Source: a virus
IMG/VR virus record: IMGVR_UViG_3300049459_000135
Coordinates: 1-57,715 of that record
DNA length: 57,715 bases
Reading direction: 5' to 3' (one strand)
In this document: positions 1-57,715 of the stretch, piece by piece
Numbering within the stretch: the first letter of the stretch is position 1
Layout of the letters: each line of letters opens with the position of its first letter
Made by a program: the position numbers and the translations under genes
Notes under the pieces: model-generated
What the model was told of the DNA's origin: nothing
Database searches by the model: none
Seen by the model: only the letters and a program-made list of their open reading frames with translations

Positions 1-262
1 CGCAACGGCGATCGTTGTCCCGCCCCACGTGCCGGCCGAGATCGTGCCGAGCGTCGTGAGATTCGTTGAACCGGCCCACGTTGAGAGCGCCGTATTCTCA
101 ACATTCCCGAGGCCTAAGTTAGTACGCGCACCCGCGGCGGTCGTACCACCCGTGCCACCGTTTGCAACGGCGATCGTTGTCCCGCCCCACGTGCCGGCCG
201 AGATCGTGCCGAGCGTCGTGAGATTCGTTGAACCGGCCCACGTTGAGAGCGCCGTATTCTCA
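1..262. repeat. 162-bp tandem direct repeat in the fibre-like gene
   Basis: Bases 2-100 recur exactly at 164-262, an offset of 162 bp (54 codons). A diverged copy of the same unit lies near 57454-57553. These encode the 54-residue protein repeats. The window ends also fall inside this repeat, so the true copy number may differ from what is assembled. Confidence 0.9.
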
Positions 263-25357: not shown

Positions 25358-25588
25358 ATGCGGCTATGCAAACTCTCAGAGTACCGCCGCTTATTCTTTA
25401 CGCCGCAAAGTGCGCCGACACTCCGGACGTTGCGCCGGAATATCAAGAAGATACCCGGCGGCACGGTTCGCGACGGCCATTATTATGTTGATTTGGACAT
25501 GCACGCGAACGGCTCGGATTTAAGCGCCTCATTGCGCGAGCGGCAAGCCGAACTTGAGAAGTCACTAGAATTGCAAGGGCTCGTGTGA
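25358..25588 (+). CDS. xis: Excisionase (Xis-like)
   Basis: 76 residues. YRRLFFTPQSAPTLRTLRRN and IPGGTVRDGHYYVDLD match the lambda-type excisionase winged-helix pattern (helix, then a beta hairpin GTVRDGHYYV). It bends attachment-site DNA and steers integrase toward excision. Its stop overlaps the integrase start as TGATG, so the two are co-translated. Confidence 0.85.
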   Translation: MRLCKLSEYRRLFFTPQSAPTLRTLRRNIKKIPGGTVRDGHYYVDLDMHANGSDLSASLRERQAELEKSLELQGLV

Positions 25589-26763
25589 TGCTACATTCCG
25601 AGGCTATGGGTAGACCAAAAAAATATAACTTTCCGGACAACATGACGTTTGACCGGAAAAATAACTCTTACAAAGTTCGTAACCCGCTCACGGGAAAGCG
25701 CGTCACATTTGAGAACGAAGCGACGGCCAGGACGGCCGCCGGTAAGCTAAATGAATGGCTCGTAATCGAAGCACGGCGCAAGCTTTTGGATGATGGGCGC
25801 CCGCGTGTTTCGCACGTGATTAAACGATGGCGCGAAGAACGCTTGCCCTATCTGCCTTGGGACACGAGCACGCGCGAAGGTAACGGCTATCGAATCACGC
25901 GCATCGAAACCGAACTCGGCGAGCGGCCGATTGCGGACGTCACGTGTAGCGAGGCTGAGGAATGGCTAAAGTTTTGCGGCACGGCCGACCAGTTCAACGG
26001 CTGGCGCCGGCTATTCTGCGAGGTATGGGAATTCGCATACTCGAAGCGAATCGTCGAACGCATCGAGGTCGATCGAATTCAAGAGCGAAGCACGAGCAAA
26101 AAACTTGCGATCAATCGAAAGAAGCGCCAGCGTTTAGAGATGCAAGGCTTCGTTGCCACGCATACCCACGCGCCGGCATGGCTACAAATCGCAATGGAGC
26201 AATCGTTAGTCACGCTGCAATCGCGCCTCGAAGTGTGCAATATGAAGCACACCGATTACCGGACCGGATACCTTTACGTGATCCGGGACAAAACGAGCGC
26301 CGATAGCGACATGGCGTTCATCAAAATCAAGCTTACGGATCAACTCGAAGACATACGCCGCCGCGCCTTGAAGTTGGACGACATCGTGTCGCCGTTCCTG
26401 ATCCATCGCCGGCCGGACCGGGCGCGCCGCGAATGGATGGACGGCAAAGCGCACTGGTCGTATATCAATCCGAATTACGTAAGCCGCGCCTTTCAGGATG
26501 CCCGCGACGCCAGCGGGTATTACAAGGACCTCGAGCCGGACGAAAAACCGTCGTTCCATGAAATCCGGAGCCTCGGCGCCCGCATATACCAAGCGCAAGG
26601 CAAGTCGAAGAAGTTCATTCAAATGCTCATGACGCACGCCAGCGCGAAGACGACGGAAATCTATCTTGAAGGCGGCGCCCAAGCCTTGACGGATGACGAT
26701 TACGTGACCGTCGCGGCGCCTCTGACGCTCGCTTCCGTGTGGTCGCTTTCGCCTCAAGTGTGA
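25588..26763 (+). CDS. int: Tyrosine-type integrase, lambda Int-like
   Basis: 391 residues from ATG 25588 (AAGGG 6 nt upstream); a GTG at 25585 is also possible. N-terminal arm-binding domain (MGRPKKYN ... YKVRNPLTGKRVTF). Catalytic domain: Arg in QSRLEVCNMKH, HEIRSLGAR (His, Arg), and THASAKTTEIYLE with the nucleophile Tyr. The spacing resembles lambda Int. It joins phage and host DNA at attP, which should lie just downstream. Confidence 0.93.
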   Translation: MLHSEAMGRPKKYNFPDNMTFDRKNNSYKVRNPLTGKRVTFENEATARTAAGKLNEWLVIEARRKLLDDGRPRVSHVIKRWREERLPYLPWDTSTREGNGYRITRIETELGERPIADVTCSEAEEWLKFCGTADQFNGWRRLFCEVWEFAYSKRIVERIEVDRIQERSTSKKLAINRKKRQRLEMQGFVATHTHAPAWLQIAMEQSLVTLQSRLEVCNMKHTDYRTGYLYVIRDKTSADSDMAFIKIKLTDQLEDIRRRALKLDDIVSPFLIHRRPDRARREWMDGKAHWSYINPNYVSRAFQDARDASGYYKDLEPDEKPSFHEIRSLGARIYQAQGKSKKFIQMLMTHASAKTTEIYLEGGAQALTDDDYVTVAAPLTLASVWSLSPQV

Positions 26764-26950: not shown

Positions 26951-26993
26951 CCAGACAAATACAAGACAAACTTTTTTTGTCTGGTTTGTCTGG
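26951..26993. repeat. Inverted repeat near attP
   Basis: Arms CCAGACAAA and TTTGTCTGG flank an inner AGACAAA / TTTGTCT pair around a T-run. It may be Int or Xis arm-type binding sites of the attP P' side or a terminator for int. The rest of 26764-27165 shows no gene. Confidence 0.5.
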
Positions 26994-27165
26994 ACCGGCG
27001 CCGCGGCTCGAACGCCGCGCATGCGGTCCGCCGGGCGCCTCGAGCGCCAGGCCGCACGCGCCACGCCCCCCCACGCCGCGCGCCCGCCTTGCGGCGATCG
27101 GCCGCCCCAGGGTTCCGAATACCGGCCGCGCGCCGGCGGCCGTCCCAGGCCGCGACGTTCGTTCC

Positions 27166-30126: not shown

Positions 30127-30260
30127 GGATGCCGGGCACGCCGGCCAGCGCAAACAACTGTCAAATTCCTCAAAGTGTTAAATCGGCTGCAACGGTAGCG
30201 TAAAACCCGCCCGGCCGCCGCAATCGCGGCGCGACATCCCGTTCGCGCCAGCAATACCGG

Positions 30261-30309
30261 CAAAGTGTGAAGCCGGCCATTTTTTCCGGCCGGCAATTCT
30301 GGCCTAATG
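30261..30309 (+). repeat. Intergenic repeat element, copy 1
   Basis: 49 bp, identical to 30957-31005. Contains GCCGGCC ... GGCCGGC inverted arms, a T6 run and GGCCTAAT, and stands 33 bp before a start codon. T-rich box and CCTAAT are 17 bp apart, like -35/-10 boxes. Confidence 0.8.
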
Positions 30310-30341
30310 GCACCCATCGGCAACGGCCAAAGGTGCTCGCG

Positions 30342-30941: not shown

Positions 30942-30956
30942 CGCGCTGCGTCAGTC

Positions 30957-31005
30957 CAAAGTGTGAAGCCGGCCATTTTTTCCGGCCGGCAATTCTGGCC
31001 TAATG
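30957..31005 (+). repeat. Intergenic repeat element, copy 2
   Basis: Identical in 49 bp to copy 1; lies 39 bp before the start at 31044. Confidence 0.8.
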
Positions 31006-31043
31006 CATCCATCGCAACGGCGCACACTTTAGAGCAAAGCAAC

Positions 31044-31693: not shown

Positions 31694-32038
31694 GTGAGCA
31701 TCGAGACGGGGGATTCGACGGCGGTAGTTTTGCAGTTCAAACAGCGGGACGAAGCGTCGCGCTTCTCGCTCGAGGTTTGGGAACGCGAATACTTTATGAC
31801 TCTCGCGATGGACATCGCGTCGGGTGGCGGCTTCGGTGAGCGTAACGAGCTCGACGTGTTGCGCGAAGCGGCCGAACGGCAACCTTGCGCGATGGACGCC
31901 GATATCAGGTTGCAAACCTTCCTGGCCGAATTGATGGCAGGCAAAACGGCGCGCGCGCAAGGTGCCCTTAGTGCACTGCGGTCGGCGGTCTTTCTTCAAC
32001 GACATTGGGATCGGCGCCGCTTGTGGCGGGAATTGTGA
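31694..32038 (+). CDS. Hypothetical protein, 114 aa
   Basis: GTG start 3 nt after the previous stop. Contains FKQRDEASRFSLEVWERE and a C-terminal helical part (AQGALSALRSAVFLQRHWDR). Its stop codon lies inside the third repeat element. Confidence 0.6.
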   Translation: MSIETGDSTAVVLQFKQRDEASRFSLEVWEREYFMTLAMDIASGGGFGERNELDVLREAAERQPCAMDADIRLQTFLAELMAGKTARAQGALSALRSAVFLQRHWDRRRLWREL

Positions 32039-32079
32039 GATAGGACGTTTTTTCCGGTCGGAAAATATGGCCTAATAGG
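32035..32079 (+). repeat. Intergenic repeat element, copy 3 (diverged)
   Basis: Shares GATAGGAC, the T-run before CCGG, and GGCCTAAT with the other copies, but the GC arms have changed (GGTCGGAAAATAT). Stands 29 bp before the gene at 32109 and overlaps the upstream stop codon. Confidence 0.7.
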
Positions 32080-32108: not shown

Positions 32109-32675
32109 ATGAACAACGGTTTTCTTTACGTTAACGAGACGACGGTTAAAACCACGATGAACGGGACCGAATACACCGTGATGCGCTACCGCGACGGGTT
32201 TCGGGTTTTCGTGGTCAATGCCATGGTGCGGGCGCACCGTAACGGGTATGCGACCGGCCGGGACTTCGCCACGCTCGAAGCCGTCGAGAAGAAATACAAA
32301 GGCCTCGCCGGCGTCGCGGCCGTCTTCCCGCAAATTGGCGAAGCCGACAAGGCGGCGCCGGCGTTCGCCGCCCTTACGACGTGCCCGTGGACGGTCGCGG
32401 ATCACAAGGGCGCCGGCGTAGAAGGCTGGGAGCTCGACGACTTATACGGCCTTCCGCTCATTGCGGCCGTGAATACGCAAGGACTCGAGCCGGAAGCCTT
32501 GGACCCGGTGTTCGCCAATGATGATGACGCACTTGCACACGTGCGCCAGCGCGCCGCCGACGGGTCGGAGCTCCACACGCGCGCGCTCGCGATTCACGAA
32601 AAGGCCTACGCGAAGGTTATGCAAGACGGCGACGGATGCGTGCGCCGACGTGCGGCCGGCGAAACTGTGAGATAG
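32109..32675 (+). CDS. Hypothetical protein with shared C-terminal domain, 188 aa
   Basis: N-terminal part: YVNETTVKTTMNGTEYTVMR, LEAVEKKYKGLAG. The C-terminal part (about 110-175: FANDDDALAHVRQRAADGS, then ELHTRALAIHEKAY) closely resembles the gene at 33070 (FTSDDQALEHVQKLAAEGS, then PLHARALKIHEQF). A duplicated domain with unknown role. Confidence 0.7.
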   Translation: MNNGFLYVNETTVKTTMNGTEYTVMRYRDGFRVFVVNAMVRAHRNGYATGRDFATLEAVEKKYKGLAGVAAVFPQIGEADKAAPAFAALTTCPWTVADHKGAGVEGWELDDLYGLPLIAAVNTQGLEPEALDPVFANDDDALAHVRQRAADGSELHTRALAIHEKAYAKVMQDGDGCVRRRAAGETVR

Positions 32676-32709
32676 GACATTTCTTCCGGCCGGCAATTCT
32701 GGCCTAATG
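32667..32709 (+). repeat. Intergenic repeat element, copy 4
   Basis: GTGAGATAGGAC as in copy 3, then TTCCGGCCGGCAATTCTGG and CCTAATG as in copies 1 and 2. Lies 37 bp before the gene at 32747. Confidence 0.75.
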
Positions 32710-32746
32710 TACGCAACACAGACGAACGGGCGGGGCGGCGGCGATC

Positions 32747-35815: not shown

Positions 35816-36304
35816 GTGAGACTCTATAACGATCTATTCGGCGTTTATCCGGCCGCGGATGAGTTGCTTAAGATGCTCGGCCTTGAGCGCGCGGCGGTTC
35901 CGCGGTTCCGCGATTGTTATTTGTCGGAAGACGCGAAACACATCATCGTAATGACGCGCACGGGCGGGACGTACAAACTTAAATGGCAAGAGCAAAACGC
36001 AGAATTGCGCAAAGTGTTCGGCTTCGTGCTCGATGCGGAACTGTCGATCGATGTCACGTACATCACCTTTCACTATCTCTTACCGACGGCATTCAAGGCA
36101 CGGGCTGAAGAACTGCGCGCCTCGATTCCTGTGCGCAATCCGCTGAAACTATGGCGCGAGATGCAAGAGCGCATAAACGCGCCGAATGGGTTGCGTGACC
36201 CGATTGTCGAGCGCTGGATGAAAATTCTTGAGCCGGCGGTCGAGCGCGCGACGGCCGAAGCAACAAAGTTCGGCATTTCGCAAATGTTCGACGACGACAT
36301 ATGA
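35816..36304 (+). CDS. Hypothetical protein, 162 aa
   Basis: GTG start. LGLERAAVPRFRDCYLSEDA and SIDVTYITFHYLLPTAFKAR suggest a compact soluble fold; helical C-terminus (WMKILEPAVERATAEATKFG). Overlaps the YkgJ-type gene by 4 bases. Confidence 0.65.
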   Translation: MRLYNDLFGVYPAADELLKMLGLERAAVPRFRDCYLSEDAKHIIVMTRTGGTYKLKWQEQNAELRKVFGFVLDAELSIDVTYITFHYLLPTAFKARAEELRASIPVRNPLKLWREMQERINAPNGLRDPIVERWMKILEPAVERATAEATKFGISQMFDDDI

Positions 36305-36948
36305 GCACGGCCGTCGATGTCTCGCGATTTCCGCCGGCCGTTCGGGAACGGCTCAAGGTCGCGAAAGCAAACGCCGAGCGCAATGCAAACCTCGCCGCTG
36401 CGCAATTGACCGCTGAGCAGGTTCAAAAAGTCAACGAACGAATAAACCGCTTGGTAAACAGCACCGAGCCGGTTTGGAGTCGCTTACGTCAATTGTATGT
36501 GCTCGTCGCGGAAGTGACGGCCAGTGTTGCGGCTCACGCGGCTTGTCACCGCGGTTGCTCGCACTGTTGTTATACCGGCGTGCGTATCTATGCGCCCGAG
36601 GCGAAAATGCTTGGCTCGGATATCGGAAGCGCACCGACAGAACCCAAGTCGCGCCGGCTCGGCAATTGGGCGCCGAATGGCTATGAAAGTCCGTGCCCGT
36701 TCTTAGTCAAGAATGAGTGCTCGATTTATGAGCATCGGCCGTTTCCGTGCCGCATCCATTACAACATGGACGTCGACTCGCTCTTATGCGAGCTTCACGC
36801 CGGCGTGACGATTCCGGTGTACTACTGGAATAACGTCGCGTTCCATATGGCCTATGCGATGATTTGTGGCGTTAAGCGAAATCGACCGGTTCCGCTCGCA
36901 GACATCCGCGAGTACTTCCCCACGGACAAGCCGGAGTGTGAAAGGTGA
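36301..36948 (+). CDS. YkgJ-type cysteine-cluster protein, copy 1
   Basis: 215 residues. Cys82-x3-Cys86-x2-Cys89-Cys90 (CHRGCSHCC) starts the YkgJ/CxxCxxCC domain, continued by PCPFLVKNECSIYEHRPFPC with further Cys. Such proteins are thought to bind Fe or Zn clusters. The helical N-terminus (residues 15-75) differs from typical short family members. The paralogue lies at 37175. Confidence 0.8.
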   Translation: MSTAVDVSRFPPAVRERLKVAKANAERNANLAAAQLTAEQVQKVNERINRLVNSTEPVWSRLRQLYVLVAEVTASVAAHAACHRGCSHCCYTGVRIYAPEAKMLGSDIGSAPTEPKSRRLGNWAPNGYESPCPFLVKNECSIYEHRPFPCRIHYNMDVDSLLCELHAGVTIPVYYWNNVAFHMAYAMICGVKRNRPVPLADIREYFPTDKPECER

Positions 36949-37178
36949 GCGAAAGCGAATTGAAGGTGTGCCAAGCCTGCAAGTGTCCGGGCCGCTATGA
37001 ATCGGTGAGCGCCAATGACTTGCGATGGTGGAAAGTCGCGTGTGACACCGCGGGCTGTCCGGGAACCAAATATATAAAGCTGCACTCTACGAAGCGCGAG
37101 GCCGCCACAACGTGGAACAGACGACGGGGCGGGAAGGCCGGCATGATGGCCGCCGAATTGAAGACGGCCGCGTCATGA
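36945..37178 (+). CDS. Restriction alleviation (Lar)-like protein
   Basis: 77 residues. CQACKCPGRYES, then WWKVACDTAGCPG and a terminal TKREAATTWNRR are the Lar zinc-ribbon pattern. Lar modulates host restriction enzymes (family knowledge). It stands between the two YkgJ-type genes, overlapping both by 4 bases. Confidence 0.75.
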   Translation: MSESELKVCQACKCPGRYESVSANDLRWWKVACDTAGCPGTKYIKLHSTKREAATTWNRRRGGKAGMMAAELKTAAS

Positions 37179-37834
37179 AGAAGCACCGCGACCCGGAGGA
37201 GCCACACTTCCCGAAGCGCATCCGCGCGCGGTTGCGAGTTTCAGGGGATAACGCCGCGCGCAATGGTGAAGCAATTGATGCGCGCATGGGGAAAGAACGA
37301 CGCGAGGCGCTAATCGCGAGGCTGGACGCTTGCGTGACCGGTGTCGGAACCGCTGAAACACGCTTGCGTGAGCTTTACGCGATCGTTGACGAATGGATGT
37401 CGTACAACGGTGAAAACGTTGCGTGCCGGCGTGGGTGCAATCATTGTTGCCACATTGCCGTCGCGGTGTTTGAAGATGAAGCGAAGATGATCGGCGCGCA
37501 TCTGAACGTCGAACCGGAAAAGCCGCCGCGGTACCGCATGGATTTTAACGACGTTCCATTCGGCCCAAGCTTCCCGTGCACGTTTCTGAAAAACGGCGAG
37601 TGCTCGATTTATGAGCATCGACCACTGAATTGTCGGACACACGTCAACATGGACGTCGACGCGCTTTTGTGTGAAATGCGGGACGGTGCGTGTTATTCCG
37701 CACCGCTCATGAATTCCGTGCTGTTTAATTGCGCGTACATTTATATCTGTGCGCCGGGCGCACAATTCGGTGAACAGCCGAAGCTCGCAGAGCTGCGCGA
37801 GTTTTTCCCGCTCAAAAAAACAGGCGAGTCATGA
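37175..37834 (+). CDS. YkgJ-type cysteine-cluster protein, copy 2
   Basis: 219 residues. Cys84, Cys88, Cys91, Cys92 (CRRGCNHCC), then FPCTFLKNGECSIYEHRPLN and CRTHVNMDVDALLCEMRDG, the same scaffold as copy 1 (CSIYEHRPFPCRIHYNMDVD). Clear tandem duplication around the Lar-like gene, with conserved Cys in both. Confidence 0.8.
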   Translation: MKKHRDPEEPHFPKRIRARLRVSGDNAARNGEAIDARMGKERREALIARLDACVTGVGTAETRLRELYAIVDEWMSYNGENVACRRGCNHCCHIAVAVFEDEAKMIGAHLNVEPEKPPRYRMDFNDVPFGPSFPCTFLKNGECSIYEHRPLNCRTHVNMDVDALLCEMRDGACYSAPLMNSVLFNCAYIYICAPGAQFGEQPKLAELREFFPLKKTGES

Positions 37835-50763: not shown

Positions 50764-51546
50764 TTACGCGGCTTCCGGATACTCGACTTTGTAAAGCTCC
50801 GTGTAACGCGAGTCCTTCAGCATCGTGAACCGTATTCCGACGGCGCCGTATCCGTCTTGAACCAGCGCGTACGCGCCTTCCGGTGTCAGTTGCGCTTTGT
50901 ACGCGGTGACGATTCCTTTCGCGCTTATGCCATCGACGTTCGTGTCATCCGAGAAGAACGTAAACCGCACATAGGAATTAAGGCGGCTCGAGCCAATGAT
51001 TTTGTCGACGCGCTGTTCGCTTGCGTTGAACGTCACGACGATTTCGTCGCCCGTCTCGGCCAGTCCGCCGTCAATAAGCTCGATTCGGCCGCGCTCGGGA
51101 TAGTGCCGATAATCCGTATTGAGCACGAGCGCCTTCGAGCCGTCGGCGATGATGCTCGTGATGGTCGTTCCGAAAAACCCGAGATCGAAGACACCGCCGG
51201 CGACGGCATCGAAAGTTGCGTTTTCTGCGGTCACCGCGTCTTGCGTCAGTTCGGTGAGCGTGCCGAGGAAGTACCGGCGAAGATTCGCCCGCGTGTGCTC
51301 GTCGCACTGGATGACAATCGCCGGTGTTTGCCGCGTGTTGCGACGGTCGAGCAACGGCGCCGCGGCCTCCGTTGAGCTGTATTTTTCCTGTGTTTGAACG
51401 TCGCCCGGCTCGAGCGATACCGACTCAGAATTTCCGAGCGGTAGACCGTCGAAGTTATCCGCCGGCGGCGTGTTGAAGTCCAGCCAATCCGCGACTACGG
51501 CGGCCCCTTTGCCAATCTTTAGATTTCCACCTTGTGCCGGAATCAT
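50764..51546 (-). CDS. Major tail tube protein
   Basis: 260 residues, usual for the family. LDFNTPPADNFDGLPLGNSE, VFDLGFFGTTITSIIADGSK and RYFLGTLTELTQDAVTAENA, with a C-terminal beta part (YVRFTFFSDDTNVDGISAKG). It forms the hexameric rings of the tail tube. The sugar cassette lies directly upstream. Confidence 0.85.
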   Translation of the reverse strand: MIPAQGGNLKIGKGAAVVADWLDFNTPPADNFDGLPLGNSESVSLEPGDVQTQEKYSSTEAAAPLLDRRNTRQTPAIVIQCDEHTRANLRRYFLGTLTELTQDAVTAENATFDAVAGGVFDLGFFGTTITSIIADGSKALVLNTDYRHYPERGRIELIDGGLAETGDEIVVTFNASEQRVDKIIGSSRLNSYVRFTFFSDDTNVDGISAKGIVTAYKAQLTPEGAYALVQDGYGAVGIRFTMLKDSRYTELYKVEYPEAA

Positions 51547-51570: not shown

Positions 51571-52287
51571 TTATCGCCAGTTGTCCCGGACCCACGCATG
51601 CGCGCGCTGGATGTCCGGTTGCCACGGATCGAACTTCCCGTGAAAGAAAACAATTCGCGCGTCAGGCGGAAGACGCCCGCCCTGACGCCGCACTTCGTTG
51701 ATGTACGAATACACGCCGTCGCTTGGCGTAAAGCGCGCCTCGTGTGGTCCGAGCGCGCATGCAATCCATGCTTGATCGCTTCCGATGTAGCCGCGCTGCA
51801 GGCCTTCTCGCGGTGAGCTCCGCGGGTCGAAGCGGTCCCACACCTGGCGCCGGGCGCCGGCGGTCAACAGAATCAAGCTTCCGTTGTATGGCGTCGAGCG
51901 TGCCGTGTCGCCCCACATCACGAAGTCTTCGGGCCGCTCGAGAATCGGCGCGAGGTCATCGCGAATCACGCAATCGAGGTCAAGCGATGCGATTCGCGGC
52001 CCGATAAGGTCGGCCGCTTCCTCTGAAAACATTTTCAGGCGCCGGTAACAGCTTGGATTGCGCGAGCTCGTCGGATTCGGAATATCCGCGTAATCGCTCC
52101 ACAAAGGAACGATACGGACGTCGGCATCAATGCCGGCCGGATCATCCGTGATGCACACGAATTCGTGCGGCTTGCGATAGTGTCGCGCGACCATCGAGCG
52201 CAACACGTTCACGTGCTCGGCCGTGAATGTCGATCGATAACCGGGCGGGCCGCGCCACTTCCAACAACAAATGACTAGGCGCGCCAT
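51571..52287 (-). CDS. Glycosyltransferase-like protein 1
   Basis: 238 residues from ATG 52287. HVNVLRSMVARHYRKPHEFV then CITDDP; a DxD metal motif (DLDC at 103-106), NGSLILLTAGARRQVWDRFD, and IGSDQAWI. This fits a GT8-like fold with UDP-sugar binding. The second copy follows upstream (52275), overlapping by 13 bases. Part of the sugar cassette. Confidence 0.75.
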   Translation of the reverse strand: MARLVICCWKWRGPPGYRSTFTAEHVNVLRSMVARHYRKPHEFVCITDDPAGIDADVRIVPLWSDYADIPNPTSSRNPSCYRRLKMFSEEAADLIGPRIASLDLDCVIRDDLAPILERPEDFVMWGDTARSTPYNGSLILLTAGARRQVWDRFDPRSSPREGLQRGYIGSDQAWIACALGPHEARFTPSDGVYSYINEVRRQGGRLPPDARIVFFHGKFDPWQPDIQRAHAWVRDNWR

Positions 52288-52973
52288 CGTTCGTAAGCCG
52301 CAAACAGGCGCGGCGCGCGCAACTTGCATTCCATGCTCCACGGTTTCAGCGCGCCGGCGAAGAACACCGCGCGCGCGCCTTTCAAGTCGCGTTCGCTTTT
52401 GAGCTCGGAGAACTGCAAGACGCCGTGCTCCGGCCCCCAAGTCGCCGGCGCCGGAATGTGTAACGACATCCACGCTTGATCCGAACCGCCGATACATCGG
52501 CCGTTATGCTTGGCTAACGCGATCATCGCCGGCGAGGTCGCCGGGTCGAATGCGGCCCACACATGCGGATGAACGCCGGCACTTAATAGAAACATGCTTC
52601 CGTTGATCGGCGCACTTTTCCCGCGCACGGCTCTAAAGGGCTCGTCAGTTATGAGCGGCCCGAGCTGCTCGAGCAAGACACAATCGAGGTCGATCGACAG
52701 GATGCGCGCACCGAAGCGTCGCGCCGTTTCCTCATCAAACAAGCGAAGTCGCGCATAACAGTTTTGCATCTTCTTTTGCGTCATCGCCGGCATGTCCCAC
52801 AGCGGCGCCGTTTCACATTCCGTAATGCCGGCGGCGTTGTCAGTCACGCAAATGAGTCGATGCGGCCGGTTGAGATGCGCGCGGAGCATGCGCGCGAATG
52901 TATTGACGTGCTCGGCGTTATAGACGGGGCGCCACCCGCGCCACAGCCAACAGAGGACCGTAAGCTCGCTCAC
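52275..52973 (-). CDS. Glycosyltransferase-like protein 2
   Basis: 232 residues, GTG start at 52973 overlapping the epimerase stop (GTGA). Paralogue of the gene at 51571: VTDNAAG, DLDC (95-98), NGSMFLLSAGVHPHVWAAFD and GGSDQAWM. Two related transferases in a row suggest sequential sugar additions. Confidence 0.75.
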   Translation of the reverse strand: MSELTVLCWLWRGWRPVYNAEHVNTFARMLRAHLNRPHRLICVTDNAAGITECETAPLWDMPAMTQKKMQNCYARLRLFDEETARRFGARILSIDLDCVLLEQLGPLITDEPFRAVRGKSAPINGSMFLLSAGVHPHVWAAFDPATSPAMIALAKHNGRCIGGSDQAWMSLHIPAPATWGPEHGVLQFSELKSERDLKGARAVFFAGALKPWSMECKLRAPRLFAAYERWRA

Positions 52974-53905
52974 ACTTTGCCGGCCGCATAGCGTGGGCCG
53001 AACCACTCAATAAACTTCGCGAGTCCTTCGGAGAGCTTGGTCGACGGGTTGTACCCGATGAGGTCGGCGACTGCGCGACACTCGGCCGTCGGGACGCAGA
53101 AACCTTGCCGCGGTCCGAGGGTTCCGACGCGCACCGCTTGAAGTCCGGCGTATTGCTCGAGCAATTGCAACACGTCATCGAGATCGGCAAGCGCGTCTTC
53201 CGCGACGATTGTCGAGACGACCCAAGGCCGCGGCAAAGGCGCAACCAGAAAACGCACCATGCATTCCACCGCATCGGCGACGTACACGAACGCGGTCTTA
53301 TAGTTGAAGCCGCCCGCGGTTACGTCGATCGTCTGGCCCGCATAAAGCCGGCGCGCCAGTTGATAGATGCCCACATCCGGCCGAATGTATGGCCCGTAGG
53401 TGGAACCGAAACGAAGGCCGACCGTCTCGAGGCCGAATTGTGCGCTGTAGACGTGAGCGCACTTTTCGTTGAAATCCTTCGTCGCGCCGTACATCGAAGT
53501 CGGTAAAACGCCGTCTTGCACGAATGTTGATGAGGCATACAGCACGCGGCGGATGCGCTTCAGTCGCACCGCTTCGAGCATGTTCACAAACGCTGTCAAG
53601 TTGCCTTCGGCATACGAAAGCGCGTGCTCGGTCGTGTGCATGACGCTGTACTGAGCGGCCATGTGCACAAGGTCCGTGAAGTCCAATAGTTCAAACAGCG
53701 TCCGCACCTGGTCGAAGTTCGCGAGGTTCACATCGTATCCCTTGAAGTTTTCAAACTTCGCCAGGTTCTCGATGCGCGCCGCCTTTGGGCTTACGGCTTT
53801 CGTTACCTTGTCGATGCCATAAACAATATGACCCTGCTTTAAGAGCCGCACCGCAAGCGAATAGCCGAGGAATCCATAGGCGCCCGTGATTACGATTTTT
53901 TGCAT
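52970..53905 (-). CDS. NAD-dependent sugar epimerase/dehydratase
   Basis: 311 residues, extended short-chain dehydrogenase. Nucleotide site GAYGFLG (8-14), acidic residue near DKVTK, active-site Ser/Thr in ASSTF (124-128) and Tyr139-x3-Lys143 (YGATK). Converts a nucleotide sugar, as in LPS and O-antigen pathways, probably supplying the cassette transferases. Confidence 0.88.
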   Translation of the reverse strand: MQKIVITGAYGFLGYSLAVRLLKQGHIVYGIDKVTKAVSPKAARIENLAKFENFKGYDVNLANFDQVRTLFELLDFTDLVHMAAQYSVMHTTEHALSYAEGNLTAFVNMLEAVRLKRIRRVLYASSTFVQDGVLPTSMYGATKDFNEKCAHVYSAQFGLETVGLRFGSTYGPYIRPDVGIYQLARRLYAGQTIDVTAGGFNYKTAFVYVADAVECMVRFLVAPLPRPWVVSTIVAEDALADLDDVLQLLEQYAGLQAVRVGTLGPRQGFCVPTAECRAVADLIGYNPSTKLSEGLAKFIEWFGPRYAAGKV

Positions 53906-54789
53906 GCAAATACACCCGCGTCGATTTCATCGCACAGCACGCGCCAGATATCGGCGCCCATGAACGACGTTCCAATAAAAGCGCAACCCGCATAGGCCGG
54001 TTGCTTCCATCCGAGCGTCGTCTCTAAAACCTTCCAGGCGCGCGTATCCAGATCGCGCACTAAATCGATGCCGCACCATTTCGTCTGGGCGCCTGCAAAG
54101 AACTCATTCGCCGCCTCGAGCACGTCGGACGTTTCAGCATCGAGCGTCGTCACCGGTTGGCACCGTCCGGAGCCGGACGCGAACGGCACGTCATCGCGAT
54201 TGTGCCGGCGCAAAATGAGCCGTTGGCGTCCGACCGCAACCACGCGATAGTCGTAATCGTTGCCCGGCAAAAACTTTTGCCATATCACGTAACCGTGTTG
54301 CACGCTGTAGCGCGCTTGAATGCCGTGAGGTCCAAACGCCGCGGCGAGCTCGCGCACCGCTTCTTCGCCTGTGCGAATTAAGCGAACGTTGTGCGAGGCC
54401 GAGCCTTCGGAACTCTTCGACACGAACGGCAGGCCGAGAGAGTCCACGGCAAAGGACGCGAGCCGTTGCGCGTTGTCGAGTGATCGAAAGACCAGCGTCG
54501 GCGGCATCCAATTGGAAAAGGCGATCGATTGCGCAAGCTTGTCGTCGTATAAGCGCAATTGCGTAATGTCCGGAATCAACACAAGCGGCGTGACGTGCAG
54601 GCCTTCAGCCGTTGCTTTCTCGATCCTGATCCGCGGCGGCGTCTGATTCACCCGCATGAACGCATAACCGTCGAAGACATCCACATCCGCCGCACATCGA
54701 AACAGGCGCGCGGTCCACCCGCGGCGCGTTGCTTCGGCGTGCAAATCGCGGCCCCATCCGCCGATATCGTCGAGGCACCATAGGTTCAT
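53890..54789 (-). CDS. ATP-grasp ligase-like protein
   Basis: 299 residues. RimK/ATP-grasp features: LYDDKLAQSIAFSNWMPPTL, LGLPFVSKSSEGSASHNVRL (glycine-rich loop with Lys-Ser), FLPGNDYDYRVVAVG, IDLVRD and KVLETTLGW. Such enzymes link an amino acid or similar group to a carboxylate. Overlaps the epimerase by 16 bases. Confidence 0.75.
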   Translation of the reverse strand: MNLWCLDDIGGWGRDLHAEATRRGWTARLFRCAADVDVFDGYAFMRVNQTPPRIRIEKATAEGLHVTPLVLIPDITQLRLYDDKLAQSIAFSNWMPPTLVFRSLDNAQRLASFAVDSLGLPFVSKSSEGSASHNVRLIRTGEEAVRELAAAFGPHGIQARYSVQHGYVIWQKFLPGNDYDYRVVAVGRQRLILRRHNRDDVPFASGSGRCQPVTTLDAETSDVLEAANEFFAGAQTKWCGIDLVRDLDTRAWKVLETTLGWKQPAYAGCAFIGTSFMGADIWRVLCDEIDAGVFACKKS

Positions 54790-55517
54790 GCGGCGTTCAC
54801 TCGCGGCACGACCGGCCGCGCCTTGTGTTGTTTGAAGAGATTGTCGGCTTCGGAGTTGCGGAGCTCCGCCGTCGCGCCTTTGCGAAACGGCCGCGCAACG
54901 GAGCCGAGCAACACGTCCGTCGTGAACTCCACTAAGCGGCCGGCAACCTCACGCTCTAACATCTCACGCAAGACCGGCCCGGCCAGGCGATCGCGAACGA
55001 CGGTTTCGGATAGCACACTTGCAAGCGGTCCGCCAAAGACGCGGAAGTCTCCGCGGTACGCATTAAAGAACTCGCGCCATCGACCTATATGCACTGCGGG
55101 CGCCTCGCTTTTGCCGGGTGTCGCGGCGGTCGGATTGTGGAAATAGACGGCACCGCTAAAACAATCCATGCCGATAAGAAAAATCGGACGGCAACCCATC
55201 AAGCGCGCGACCCATGCGGCGGCGATTCCGCTATTAGGCTGCGGCGTCTCGAGGATGCGGAAGTCCGCCCACAGGTGGCGCGAGATGAGCGGCACCGCGA
55301 ACGGGCGCAATTGCTTGTCGAGCTTGTCAAGCGCGATCGCGTATTCGCACGGCCGCAATTTGAAGCCGTGCCCGTTCACGGAGATATGAAGCGCATCGAC
55401 GGGCGCGCATTCCATTTCACGAGGCGCGGACGGTCCACCGCCCACGATGACGGCCGCACGGCCCGCGTGCACGCCGATGAGCTCGCGCACCGTGCGATAG
55501 AGCGGCCAAGGGCTCAT
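54786..55517 (-). CDS. MAF/DUF115-like glycosyltransferase-related protein
   Basis: 243 residues. AAVIVGGGPSAPREMECAPV then DALHISVNGHGFKLRPCEYA and NSGIAAAWVARLMGCRPIFL then IGMDCFSG fit the DUF115/MptE-like group, known in flagellin glycosylation (Maf) and in phage genes. The GGGPS near the N-terminus suggests nucleotide binding. First gene of the cassette. Confidence 0.7.
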   Translation of the reverse strand: MSPWPLYRTVRELIGVHAGRAAVIVGGGPSAPREMECAPVDALHISVNGHGFKLRPCEYAIALDKLDKQLRPFAVPLISRHLWADFRILETPQPNSGIAAAWVARLMGCRPIFLIGMDCFSGAVYFHNPTAATPGKSEAPAVHIGRWREFFNAYRGDFRVFGGPLASVLSETVVRDRLAGPVLREMLEREVAGRLVEFTTDVLLGSVARPFRKGATAELRNSEADNLFKQHKARPVVPRVNAA

Positions 55518-55960
55518 TGTTTGGCGGCGAGGTTCGCGCGCTGCGTCTGGTAGGTCACCGTCCACGTGACCGTCGCGGCAATGTAAAAGAGGTCGTGATT
55601 CTGTGTTTCCCATACGGTCGCGGTTTCCTGTATGTCGAAAACGAGACCGCCGAGATTCGAGCCGGCGAGCACTGACACGAGCCACGTCAAAGAAGGTTCC
55701 ACGCTGTCGTCGGCGTCTTCCGGGTCTTCGACCGCATCGACGACTTGCGTTGCAAGCGTGAGCGCACGTTTTGTGACCGCGCCGGAGCGTCCGCCCGGTT
55801 GCGCGTTTTCTTCTTTCACGAAGAAGACGCCGAGCCGTTGTGAGGTCACACGCTGGCCAGGGATAAACCGCCGGCGCGTTGCTTCCGGAACGCCGACCGG
55901 TCGCGCCGTGTTGATTGCCGTGATGAAAGCGTCGCGGATGTCTTGGCGAACGGTGCTCAT
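55514..55960 (-). CDS. Tail terminator protein, gpU-like
   Basis: 148 residues. RQDIRDAFITAINTARPVGV and LTWLVSVLAGSNLGGLVFDI, with a beta-rich C-terminus (FYIAATVTWTVTYQTQRA), fit the gpU position and size. The start overlaps the fibre-like stop by one base. The cassette follows by a 4-base overlap. Confidence 0.65.
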   Translation of the reverse strand: MSTVRQDIRDAFITAINTARPVGVPEATRRRFIPGQRVTSQRLGVFFVKEENAQPGGRSGAVTKRALTLATQVVDAVEDPEDADDSVEPSLTWLVSVLAGSNLGGLVFDIQETATVWETQNHDLFYIAATVTWTVTYQTQRANLAAKQ

Positions 55961-57715
55961 TAGAAACCCATCGCCATAAAGTTGACGACATCCGCGCTTA
56001 CTGTCGTCGCCGAGATGGTGCACGAAGTCGTCGTGCTCGCGGTTTGCGTGAACGTCACCGGCGTTGTGATGTCTTGCGCGTGACACGTCCAGCCATTCGG
56101 CGCCGTGGGCAACGTGATTGTTACGGCACACGTGCCCGTCGTGCCCGAGGCAAACTTGCCCGCGATCGCGCCGCCGACCGTCGCGGAGTTGGAGCAACCC
56201 GACGCCGTAAACTTCGTCCCGCCCGATGACAAGGCGCCGGCGATAACGACTTTTCCGCGCGTGCCCGCGCCCGACGGTGCGCCGCCTCCAAGCGTCACGT
56301 CGGCGCCGTTGCCGGCCGATGCGCCGCCGGCGCCGCCGGTGATAGATATCGCGCCACCCGCGCCACTCGTGCCGCCACCTTGCCCGCCCGCAATCGTGAG
56401 CGGGCCGCCGGTTGCCGTGCCCGTTGCCTGTCCGCCGGTCATCGTGATCGCCGCGCCCGCGGCGTTCGTCCCGCTTGACCCGCCTTGGTCGATGTTCACC
56501 GCGCCCGGAATGCCTGTTCCGGCCGGTGAGCCGCCTTGCACGGTGAGCACGCCGCCGTCGCCGCTGGTCGTGCCACCCTGGCCACCGCGCACCGTGAGCG
56601 GGCCGCCCGTGCCCGTGCTCGCCGTGACATTGCCGCCGGTCACTTGGAAACCAGAAGTCGATACGGCGTTGCGGATTGCGCAACCCTGGCCCGCGTCACC
56701 GCATGTCAACGTGTTAAGCGATGAGTCGTACGCAAAACCGGTATCGGAACCAAACGCACCGCTATTGCGAAATTGAACCTCAGTTCCGGAGCCAGCCGGC
56801 GCCGTAGCGGCGCCGGTCGTGCCGCACGACCATGTGTTCGTCGCGGTCGTATAGTTCAAATGGTTTCCGGCGCTATCGGTGCAGTTCGGCAATGCCTTCG
56901 CAACCCACGCCGTACCACTCGAGACAAGCGTTGTGTCATCCGCCGCGCTTGAAAGATTCGTGCCCCCGTTCGCGAACGCCAGCACACCACTTATTGACGC
57001 ACTGGCAACGTCGACCGGCATCCATGAATAGGTACTAGAGCCGGTGACAGTTAGGACCTTTCCGACAACGCTTGAATTGGCGATCGGTGTAACGGCACTT
57101 GTTCCGTTGCCTTGCAATAGCCCGGTGAGCGTCGCCGCACCCGTGCCCCCTTGCGATACGGTCACCGCTGCATTGGTCGTCAGAATCGTCGACGTCGCAT
57201 TCGGCAACGTAAACGTTTTCGTGCTCGTCGTCGGCCCCGTGAATGCCATAAAAGCATTGCCCGTGCCGCCGTTCGTGCCGGACAGAAGTCCCGTCACCGC
57301 CGATGCGCTCGAGAGATTGACCGCGCCAAATCCGACGGCGGCGCCTGATCGGCGAAACACTTGGTCGTCTGAGCCGGCGACGATAGACGCAAGGTCGGCG
57401 GTCGAGTTGCCCACAACGCCGAGCACGGACAACGCGCTACCTTGTGCGATGTTCGCGAATGCGATGTCGGTCCCGCCCCACGTGCCGGCCGAGATCGTGC
57501 CGAGCGTTGTTAGATTGGTTGAACCGGCCCACGTCGAGAGCGCCGTATTCTCAACGTTCCCCAGGCCTAAATTAGTTCGAGCGCCCGCGGCGGTCGTGTC
57601 ACCCGTGCCACCGTTCGCAACGGCGATCGTTGTCCCGCCCCACGTGCCGGCCGAGATCGTGCCGAGCGTCGTGAGATTCGTTGAACCGGCCCACGTTGAG
57701 AGCGCCGTATTCTCA
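55960..57715 (-). CDS. Secreted fibre-like repeat protein, C-terminal part
   Basis: Continues the reading frame of 609-1 through the circular joint. It contains the last repeat copy (NTALSTWAGSTNLTTLGTI, then GTWGGTDIAFANIAQG), a middle with GTW-like strands and a Gly/Thr-rich stretch of short GGxGG repeats (GGPLTIAGGQGGGTSGAGGA), and a C-terminus with several Cys (CSNSATV, CAVTITLP, CHAQD, CTISATTV). Likely trimeric fibre-like shape. The gene stops at 55960, adjacent to the tail terminator. Confidence 0.8.
   Translation of the reverse strand, partial: ENTALSTWAGSTNLTTLGTISAGTWGGTTIAVANGGTGDTTAAGARTNLGLGNVENTALSTWAGSTNLTTLGTISAGTWGGTDIAFANIAQGSALSVLGVVGNSTADLASIVAGSDDQVFRRSGAAVGFGAVNLSSASAVTGLLSGTNGGTGNAFMAFTGPTTSTKTFTLPNATSTILTTNAAVTVSQGGTGAATLTGLLQGNGTSAVTPIANSSVVGKVLTVTGSSTYSWMPVDVASASISGVLAFANGGTNLSSAADDTTLVSSGTAWVAKALPNCTDSAGNHLNYTTATNTWSCGTTGAATAPAGSGTEVQFRNSGAFGSDTGFAYDSSLNTLTCGDAGQGCAIRNAVSTSGFQVTGGNVTASTGTGGPLTVRGGQGGTTSGDGGVLTVQGGSPAGTGIPGAVNIDQGGSSGTNAAGAAITMTGGQATGTATGGPLTIAGGQGGGTSGAGGAISITGGAGGASAGNGADVTLGGGAPSGAGTRGKVVIAGALSSGGTKFTASGCSNSATVGGAIAGKFASGTTGTCAVTITLPTAPNGWTCHAQDITTPVTFTQTASTTTSCTISATTVSADVVNFMAMGF
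57616..57715. repeat. 100-bp terminal direct repeat (circular joint)
   Basis: Identical to bases 1-100 and, except for one end base, to 163-262. The end of the window continues into the start, so this is a circle or a circularly permuted unit of about 57,615 bp. Because the overlap lies inside the 162-bp repeat, the number of repeat copies at the joint is uncertain. Confidence 0.85.

Follow-up and report, generated by a model that had tools for sequence, protein, structure and literature searches.

A candidate virion-glycosylation cassette that recurs among the structural genes of unrelated phages

To our knowledge, proven glycosylation of phage virions has so far been known mainly from mycobacteriophages. 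There, transferases encoded by the phage glycosylate the capsid and the tail tube, according to two later papers that cite the work (Freeman 2023, cited in PMC11600133, PMC12363180). In the cluster O mycobacteriophage Corndog, an O-methyltransferase and three transferases are encoded between the portal and protease genes (PMC4351075). Here we describe a cassette of five genes at positions 51571-55517 of the virus record IMGVR_UViG_3300049459_000135; the whole stretch of 57,715 nucleotides (nt) that was analysed is called the window. The cassette encodes two glycosyltransferases of the GT8 type (GT8a and GT8b), a sugar epimerase of the extended short-chain dehydrogenase/reductase (SDR) type, an ATP-grasp ligase and a DUF115-like putative transferase. 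It is a candidate mobile module for the glycosylation of a virion protein.

Like the Corndog genes, this cassette is a small run of sugar-transferase genes inside a virion operon. The mycobacteriophage cassettes (Corndog gp35-38, Che8 gp110) modify virion proteins in the cytoplasm, as others have shown according to the citing papers, and the same is proposed for the window. However, the Corndog run includes an O-methyltransferase, whereas the window module combines an SDR epimerase with an ATP-grasp ligase, and methyltransferases occur in only some of its relatives. The Tetraselmis viridis virus S20 (NC_020840) has a GT8b 55% identical to that of the window and a long cassette with GT-D, GT2-like, 'sialyltransferase'-like and methyltransferase genes between the major capsid and head closure genes. 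However, the S20 cassette has no ATP-grasp gene. The gtr serotype-conversion cassettes also consist of glycosyltransferases carried by temperate phages, whereas the window cassette encodes no GtrA flippase, no GtrB bactoprenol transferase and no membrane proteins, and it lies in a late operon, not beside the integrase. The first-pass annotation of the window named the cassette its best candidate for an undescribed system. In kind the system is known, as phage virion glycosylation has been described, but the set of enzymes is different and did not turn up in a search limited to open-access papers, so that 'undescribed' is provisional.

The cassette and the two genes that bound it are as follows, in the direction of transcription.

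55514..55960, minus strand: tail terminator gene, the upstream boundary, outside the cassette (phrog_4204, E 4.5e-10)
54786..55517, minus strand: DUF115/MptE-like, GT42-sialyltransferase-like putative transferase, 243 aa (sub-cut-off PF01973, phrog_4603, orthologue in the relative L006)
53890..54789, minus strand: ATP-grasp ligase of the RimK/LysX fold, 299 aa (profile match to LysX 3vpd; AlphaFold2 model and Foldseek)
52970..53905, minus strand: extended SDR, UDP-glucuronate 4-epimerase-like NDP-sugar epimerase, 311 aa (PF01370, 5u4q, 6zl6, motifs)
52275..52973, minus strand: GT8a, glycogenin-like glycosyltransferase, 232 aa, GTG start at 52973 (phrog_1962, E 1.5e-5)
51571..52287, minus strand: GT8b, glycogenin-like glycosyltransferase, 238 aa (phrog_1962, E 1.4e-14)
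50764..51546, minus strand: tail tube gene, the downstream boundary, outside the cassette (phrog_807, E 8.8e-31; NF052337, 106.7 bits, cut-off 60)

All five open reading frames (ORFs) lie exactly where the first-pass annotation placed them, and its description of a tight overlap between tail terminator and tail tube genes is borne out by the matches of the flanking genes and by the overlaps of 4-16 nt. In order, these are 4 nt (tail terminator and DUF115-like genes), 4 nt (DUF115-like and ATP-grasp), 16 nt (ATP-grasp and SDR), 4 nt (SDR and GT8a) and 13 nt (GT8a and GT8b). The gap of 24 nt between GT8b and the ATG of the tail tube gene holds a Shine-Dalgarno-like GGAG. No sigma-70-like promoter was found within the cassette stretch, and the number of terminator-like sites there is not above that expected from shuffled sequences. 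The GC content, third-position GC (GC3) and codon usage of the cassette are those of the neighbouring virion genes. This agrees with its earlier description as a sugar and ligase cassette in a late structural operon, and the cassette is predicted to be co-expressed with the late morphogenesis genes. No membrane-like hydrophobic segments were predicted in any of the five proteins.

GT8a and GT8b are about 40% identical to each other, and the DLDC motif noted earlier is present in both. A profile of their family matches glycogenin (E 2e-6) over the part from DxD to HxGxxxPW, including the NG and DQ regions, and also a GT8 Skp1 galactosyltransferase. Thus both are GT-A, GT8-type transferases, having DxD, a downstream DQ and an HxGxxxPW-type motif together with profile homology to GT8 structures. 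However, they differ from the described members of the family (glycogenin, LgtC) in forming a separate phage clade, and neither has a Pfam match, so that the Pfam cut-off for GT8 is not reached. Phage relatives of GT8b are 52-59% identical to it. In a tblastn search of 50,697 phage records GT8b matched only the Tetraselmis viruses S20 and SI1 and EBPR siphovirus 3.

The epimerase matches PF01370 (E 4e-29). Its GxxGxxG and YxxxK motifs, also seen in the first reading, are invariant among relatives (G8xxG11xxG14, which binds NAD, and Y139xxxK143). With the GxxGxxG motif, the catalytic S/T-Y-K and best homologues of the 4-epimerase type, it falls among the extended SDR 4-epimerases. The best relatives of known structure are 5u4q (E 4.7e-47) and 6zl6 (E 1.8e-19). 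The latter is a UDP-glucuronate 4-epimerase, and the sequence of 5u4q is that of another. Its depositors label 5u4q a dTDP-glucose dehydratase, and the UDP-glucuronate specificity of the window enzyme is a prediction. Judged by its sequence, the likeliest reaction would be conversion of UDP-glucuronate to UDP-galacturonate.

The ATP-grasp protein has no Pfam match and only weak NCBIfam matches to RimK/LysX families. Its profile matches LysX 3vpd (E 2.5e-5), and its AlphaFold2 model (pLDDT 88.7) is matched by Foldseek to ArgX, LysX and RimK (E 1e-13 to 1e-11, TM about 0.7; ArgX 3vpb, E 1.1e-13). Ten relatives all share K84 and K125, the lysines that bind ATP, and D242 and E256, the acidic residues that bind metal. 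The fold and these conserved residues place the protein in the RimK/LysX group, and the ligase identity proposed earlier from the sequence holds. Single-protein scans with this protein and with the DUF115-like protein gave nothing, and profiles were needed to find relatives. Profile searches in 2.9 million viral contigs yielded a small ATP-grasp family. It is absent from the 50,697 phage records and, at E 1e-20, from 754 proteobacterial genomes, 385 of the class of Bradyrhizobium (host of the prophage L105) and 369 of the class of Luteimonas (L112); where it matches in phage records, the same profile reaches about 1e-111 to 1e-130. Thus the ligase looks phage-specific and unsampled among isolates.

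The DUF115-like protein scores 20.1 bits against PF01973, under the cut-off of 34.6. It matches phrog_4603, 'alpha-2,3-sialyltransferase', at E 0.003. With a profile built from nine phage relatives, the matches to GT42 sialyltransferases and to MptE are no better than E 0.03-0.1, and the AlphaFold2 model, built from two sequences, is too poor for fold comparison (pLDDT 44.6). The protein shares with the Maf/DUF115 flagellin glycosyltransferases a short DUF115/MptE-like signature and a weak GT42-sialyltransferase similarity. However, it is small and far under the family cut-off, and the cassette has no genes for nonulosonic-acid synthesis. As the score is below the cut-off, 'MAF-like' is a lead only, and the close link to Maf enzymes drawn in the first-pass annotation is not sustained.

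The first-pass annotation proposed a search for a recurring set of these genes next to tail genes, and named absence of the set from related phages as a refuting outcome. Such a set recurs near virion genes in L143, L132, L141 and other viral contigs, and this answers that test. In L143 the genes follow the order of the window, ATP-grasp, SDR, GT8a, GT8b, with zero genes between them, and lie between a MuF-type head gene and the protease and capsid genes; the proteins are 37-53% identical to those of the window, except GT8b (about 35%). L132 and L141 have the same four-gene order with two inserted methyltransferase-like genes; the L141 contig stops inside GT8b. ATP-grasp, SDR and GT8 genes lie directly downstream of the capsid region in L102 and L103, and L104 and L134 have ATP-grasp and GT8 genes within the head operon. 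In the podophage-like contigs L135 and L136, DUF115-like, ATP-grasp and GT8a genes follow the capsid gene, in a neighbourhood with a T7-type head-tail adaptor and a tail protein.

In all ten ATP-grasp relatives with enough flanking sequence, a GT8 gene lies within about 1.4 kb of the ligase gene. A detectable GT8 was present in 0/79 control structural loci (1.1 Mb), chosen via the capsid protein. Thus the recurrence exceeds chance, and the cassette is more than a single isolated insertion. A maximum-likelihood tree places the window GT8a in a supported clade (98/95) made up only of phage GT8s that neighbour ATP-grasp genes, and thus the ligase and GT8a travel together. The capsids at the module loci come from at least four PHROG families (29, 247, 264 and 3437), indicating that the module has moved between phage lineages. 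Sugar-transferase genes lie inside a virion structural operon in the window and in L006, L102, L103, L104, L132, L134-L136, L141, L143, L105, L113 and L018. Among these, L113 (a prophage of the Alcaligenaceae strain CAII-56) has a DUF115-like gene and GT8b between the capsid and head-tail adaptor genes, and in L105 (a prophage of Bradyrhizobium sp. JYMT SZCCT0428) a longer glycosyltransferase cassette follows the capsid gene. The prophage L112 of Luteimonas saliphila SJ-9 also carries a GT8 cassette.

The nearest relative of the window phage is L006, with a capsid 56% identical to that of the window. At the same site in L006 a DUF115-like gene (40% identity) and a GT8b gene (55%) still form the outer pair, but the genes between them are different and encode a methyltransferase, a methyltransferase-like protein that Pfam does not match, and a protein of 472 aa. 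Thus this is a cassette with a swappable middle. Kept ends and an exchanged middle suggest selection for a changing product, as at polysaccharide loci. The 472-aa protein (L006:6581-7999) has no Pfam match and belongs to no known family.

On balance we favour, with some confidence, a mobile virion-glycosylation module whose enzymes would glycosylate a virion protein in the cytoplasm; the module probably decorates the virus particle with an unusual sugar. We infer this from the repeated placement among virion genes, the predicted co-expression, the lack of a membrane or lipid-linked step, and the published precedent. The module would be transcribed with the late morphogenesis operon, and its enzymes would act in the cytoplasm during head and tail assembly. 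The SDR would convert a host precursor into an unusual NDP-sugar, an NDP-uronic acid. GT8a, GT8b and the DUF115-like protein would then build a short glycan on one of the abundant virion proteins, and the ATP-grasp ligase may add an amino acid or another amine, either to the glycan (e.g. as an amide on its uronic-acid carboxylate) or to the protein that carries it. The benefit might be, for example, masking of the particle or altered adsorption. Virion glycosylation was already proposed in the first-pass annotation, and the part of that proposal concerning a virion protein is supported. Its specific choice of the tail tube is not: the module adjoins capsid genes in podophage-like contigs, which should lack a tail tube, and thus the tail tube is no likelier a target than the capsid. 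A phage tail protein as target had been treated there as an inference, and the glycosylation of mycobacteriophage capsid and tail tube, as reported in the papers that cite it, makes this a smaller leap.

A more detailed scheme can be put forward only tentatively. A phage-specific pathway of four enzymes (ATP-grasp, SDR and the two GT8s) would build an amino-acid-amidated uronic-acid glycan on virion proteins; the cassette would be exchanged between unrelated tailed phages and its middle genes swapped as at a serotype locus, so that related phages would display different particle glycans.

The main rival explanation is modification of the host surface, where lipopolysaccharide, capsule or another host glycan would be altered during infection, for instance to block superinfection or to keep progeny from sticking to debris. 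Clusters of glycosyltransferases, mainly of (jumbo) cyanophages, have been read in this way (PMC7824862). The SDR resembles epimerases from O-antigen and capsule pathways, and a distant cyanophage relative of it adjoins Wzy/Wzc genes. However, the cassette contains no membrane protein, flippase, polymerase or lipid-linked transferase, its late position between virion genes is expected to keep it silent in lysogeny, and unrelated phages repeatedly have the module within their head and tail operons. Thus the host surface, which the first-pass annotation offered as another target, is an unlikely one. Somewhat less likely still is direct aminoacylation of a virion or host protein by the ligase in the manner of RimK and LysX, the sugar genes acting separately. 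It is true that the closest folds, ArgX, LysX and RimK, join amino acids to proteins, and R2K ATP-grasp ligases of jumbo phages have been predicted to modify host proteins (PMC7824862), but the strict pairing of the ligase with GT8 genes (10/10) and its co-inheritance with GT8a speak for a common pathway.

Phage glycosyltransferases often act on modified DNA bases, according to one citing paper (Pyle 2024, cited in PMC12619734), and the transferases and ligase might build a hypermodified base. However, the matches of the GT8s are to the glycogenin group and not to DNA transferases, and no cytosine C5-methyltransferase, TET/JBP oxygenase, hydroxymethylase or base kinase was found among the approximately 40 window proteins searched, which do not include every ORF. 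Without such partner enzymes DNA modification is very improbable. We give least credence to unselected moron or passenger genes that were acquired together and share no product: the gene order has been kept although the copies have diverged deeply (about 35-53% identity) and sit in lineages whose heads are unrelated, the motifs are intact and the codon usage is that of the operon.

Several observations weigh against glycosylation of a virion protein by this module. The tblastn search with GT8b matched no mycobacteriophage record among the 50,697, and homology to the proven transferases was thus not detected. In RimK-type enzymes a metal-binding Asn follows the conserved Glu. The corresponding ExN motif near the C-terminus of the window ligase is absent, with T, S or G two residues past E256 in the aligned relatives; most of them have Thr or Ser in place of the usual Asn. 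The DUF115-like assignment, being sub-threshold, is the least certain of the five. Finally, in the 70-kb contig L138 (7998-10954) the ATP-grasp, methyltransferase, GT2 and GT8 genes lie near a DNA polymerase gene and not near virion genes, and thus placement among virion genes is no absolute rule.

An exact 100-nt repeat at the two ends of the window (1-100 and 57616-57715) makes it probable that the record holds a whole phage genome, circular or circularly permuted, with a length of about 57,615 bp (about 57.6 kb). A tyrosine integrase, a CI-like repressor domain and RecT are encoded, and thus the phage looks temperate. The head genes are lambda-like (GpA terminase, lambda-type portal, S49 protease, capsid E). 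The integrase gene (25585-26763) lies beside a tRNA-Ser(CGA) gene (26992-27080), and an attachment site is likely there.

A fibre-like gene on the minus strand runs across the ends of the record (about 1-600 joined to 55963-57715), its reading frame continuing through the 100-nt repeat. It encodes a hydrophobic signal-peptide-like N-terminus, ENTALSTWAGSTN repeats and a Gly/Ser/Thr-rich C-terminal part. It is placed between the head and tail genes; L006 has no fibre-like gene at that place. This Gly/Ser/Thr-rich fibre gene next to the cassette was considered as a recurring acceptor and rejected, as such ORFs occur near 1/33 GT8 loci versus 3/40 control loci. Elsewhere in the window there are four similar repeats of 46-70 nt (30251-30320, 30947-31016, 32031-32076 and 32651-32720), about 74-85% identical to reference copies. 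They hold a palindrome of the CCGGCC...GGCCGG type, apparently 5' of small plus-strand ORFs, and may be operators or promoters. Two nearby genes (36301-36948 and 37112-37834) encode a CxxCxxCC metal-chelating domain (PF03692) and are an apparent tandem duplication. A PADLOC search for anti-phage defence genes gave no match of note.

If the module does glycosylate virions, the different recurring enzyme set and the unrelated head families would mean that particle glycosylation has more than one origin and is passed on as a cassette. It would also be a source of enzymes for protein glycosylation in the cytoplasm, and the purpose of particle glycans would become testable outside Mycobacterium.

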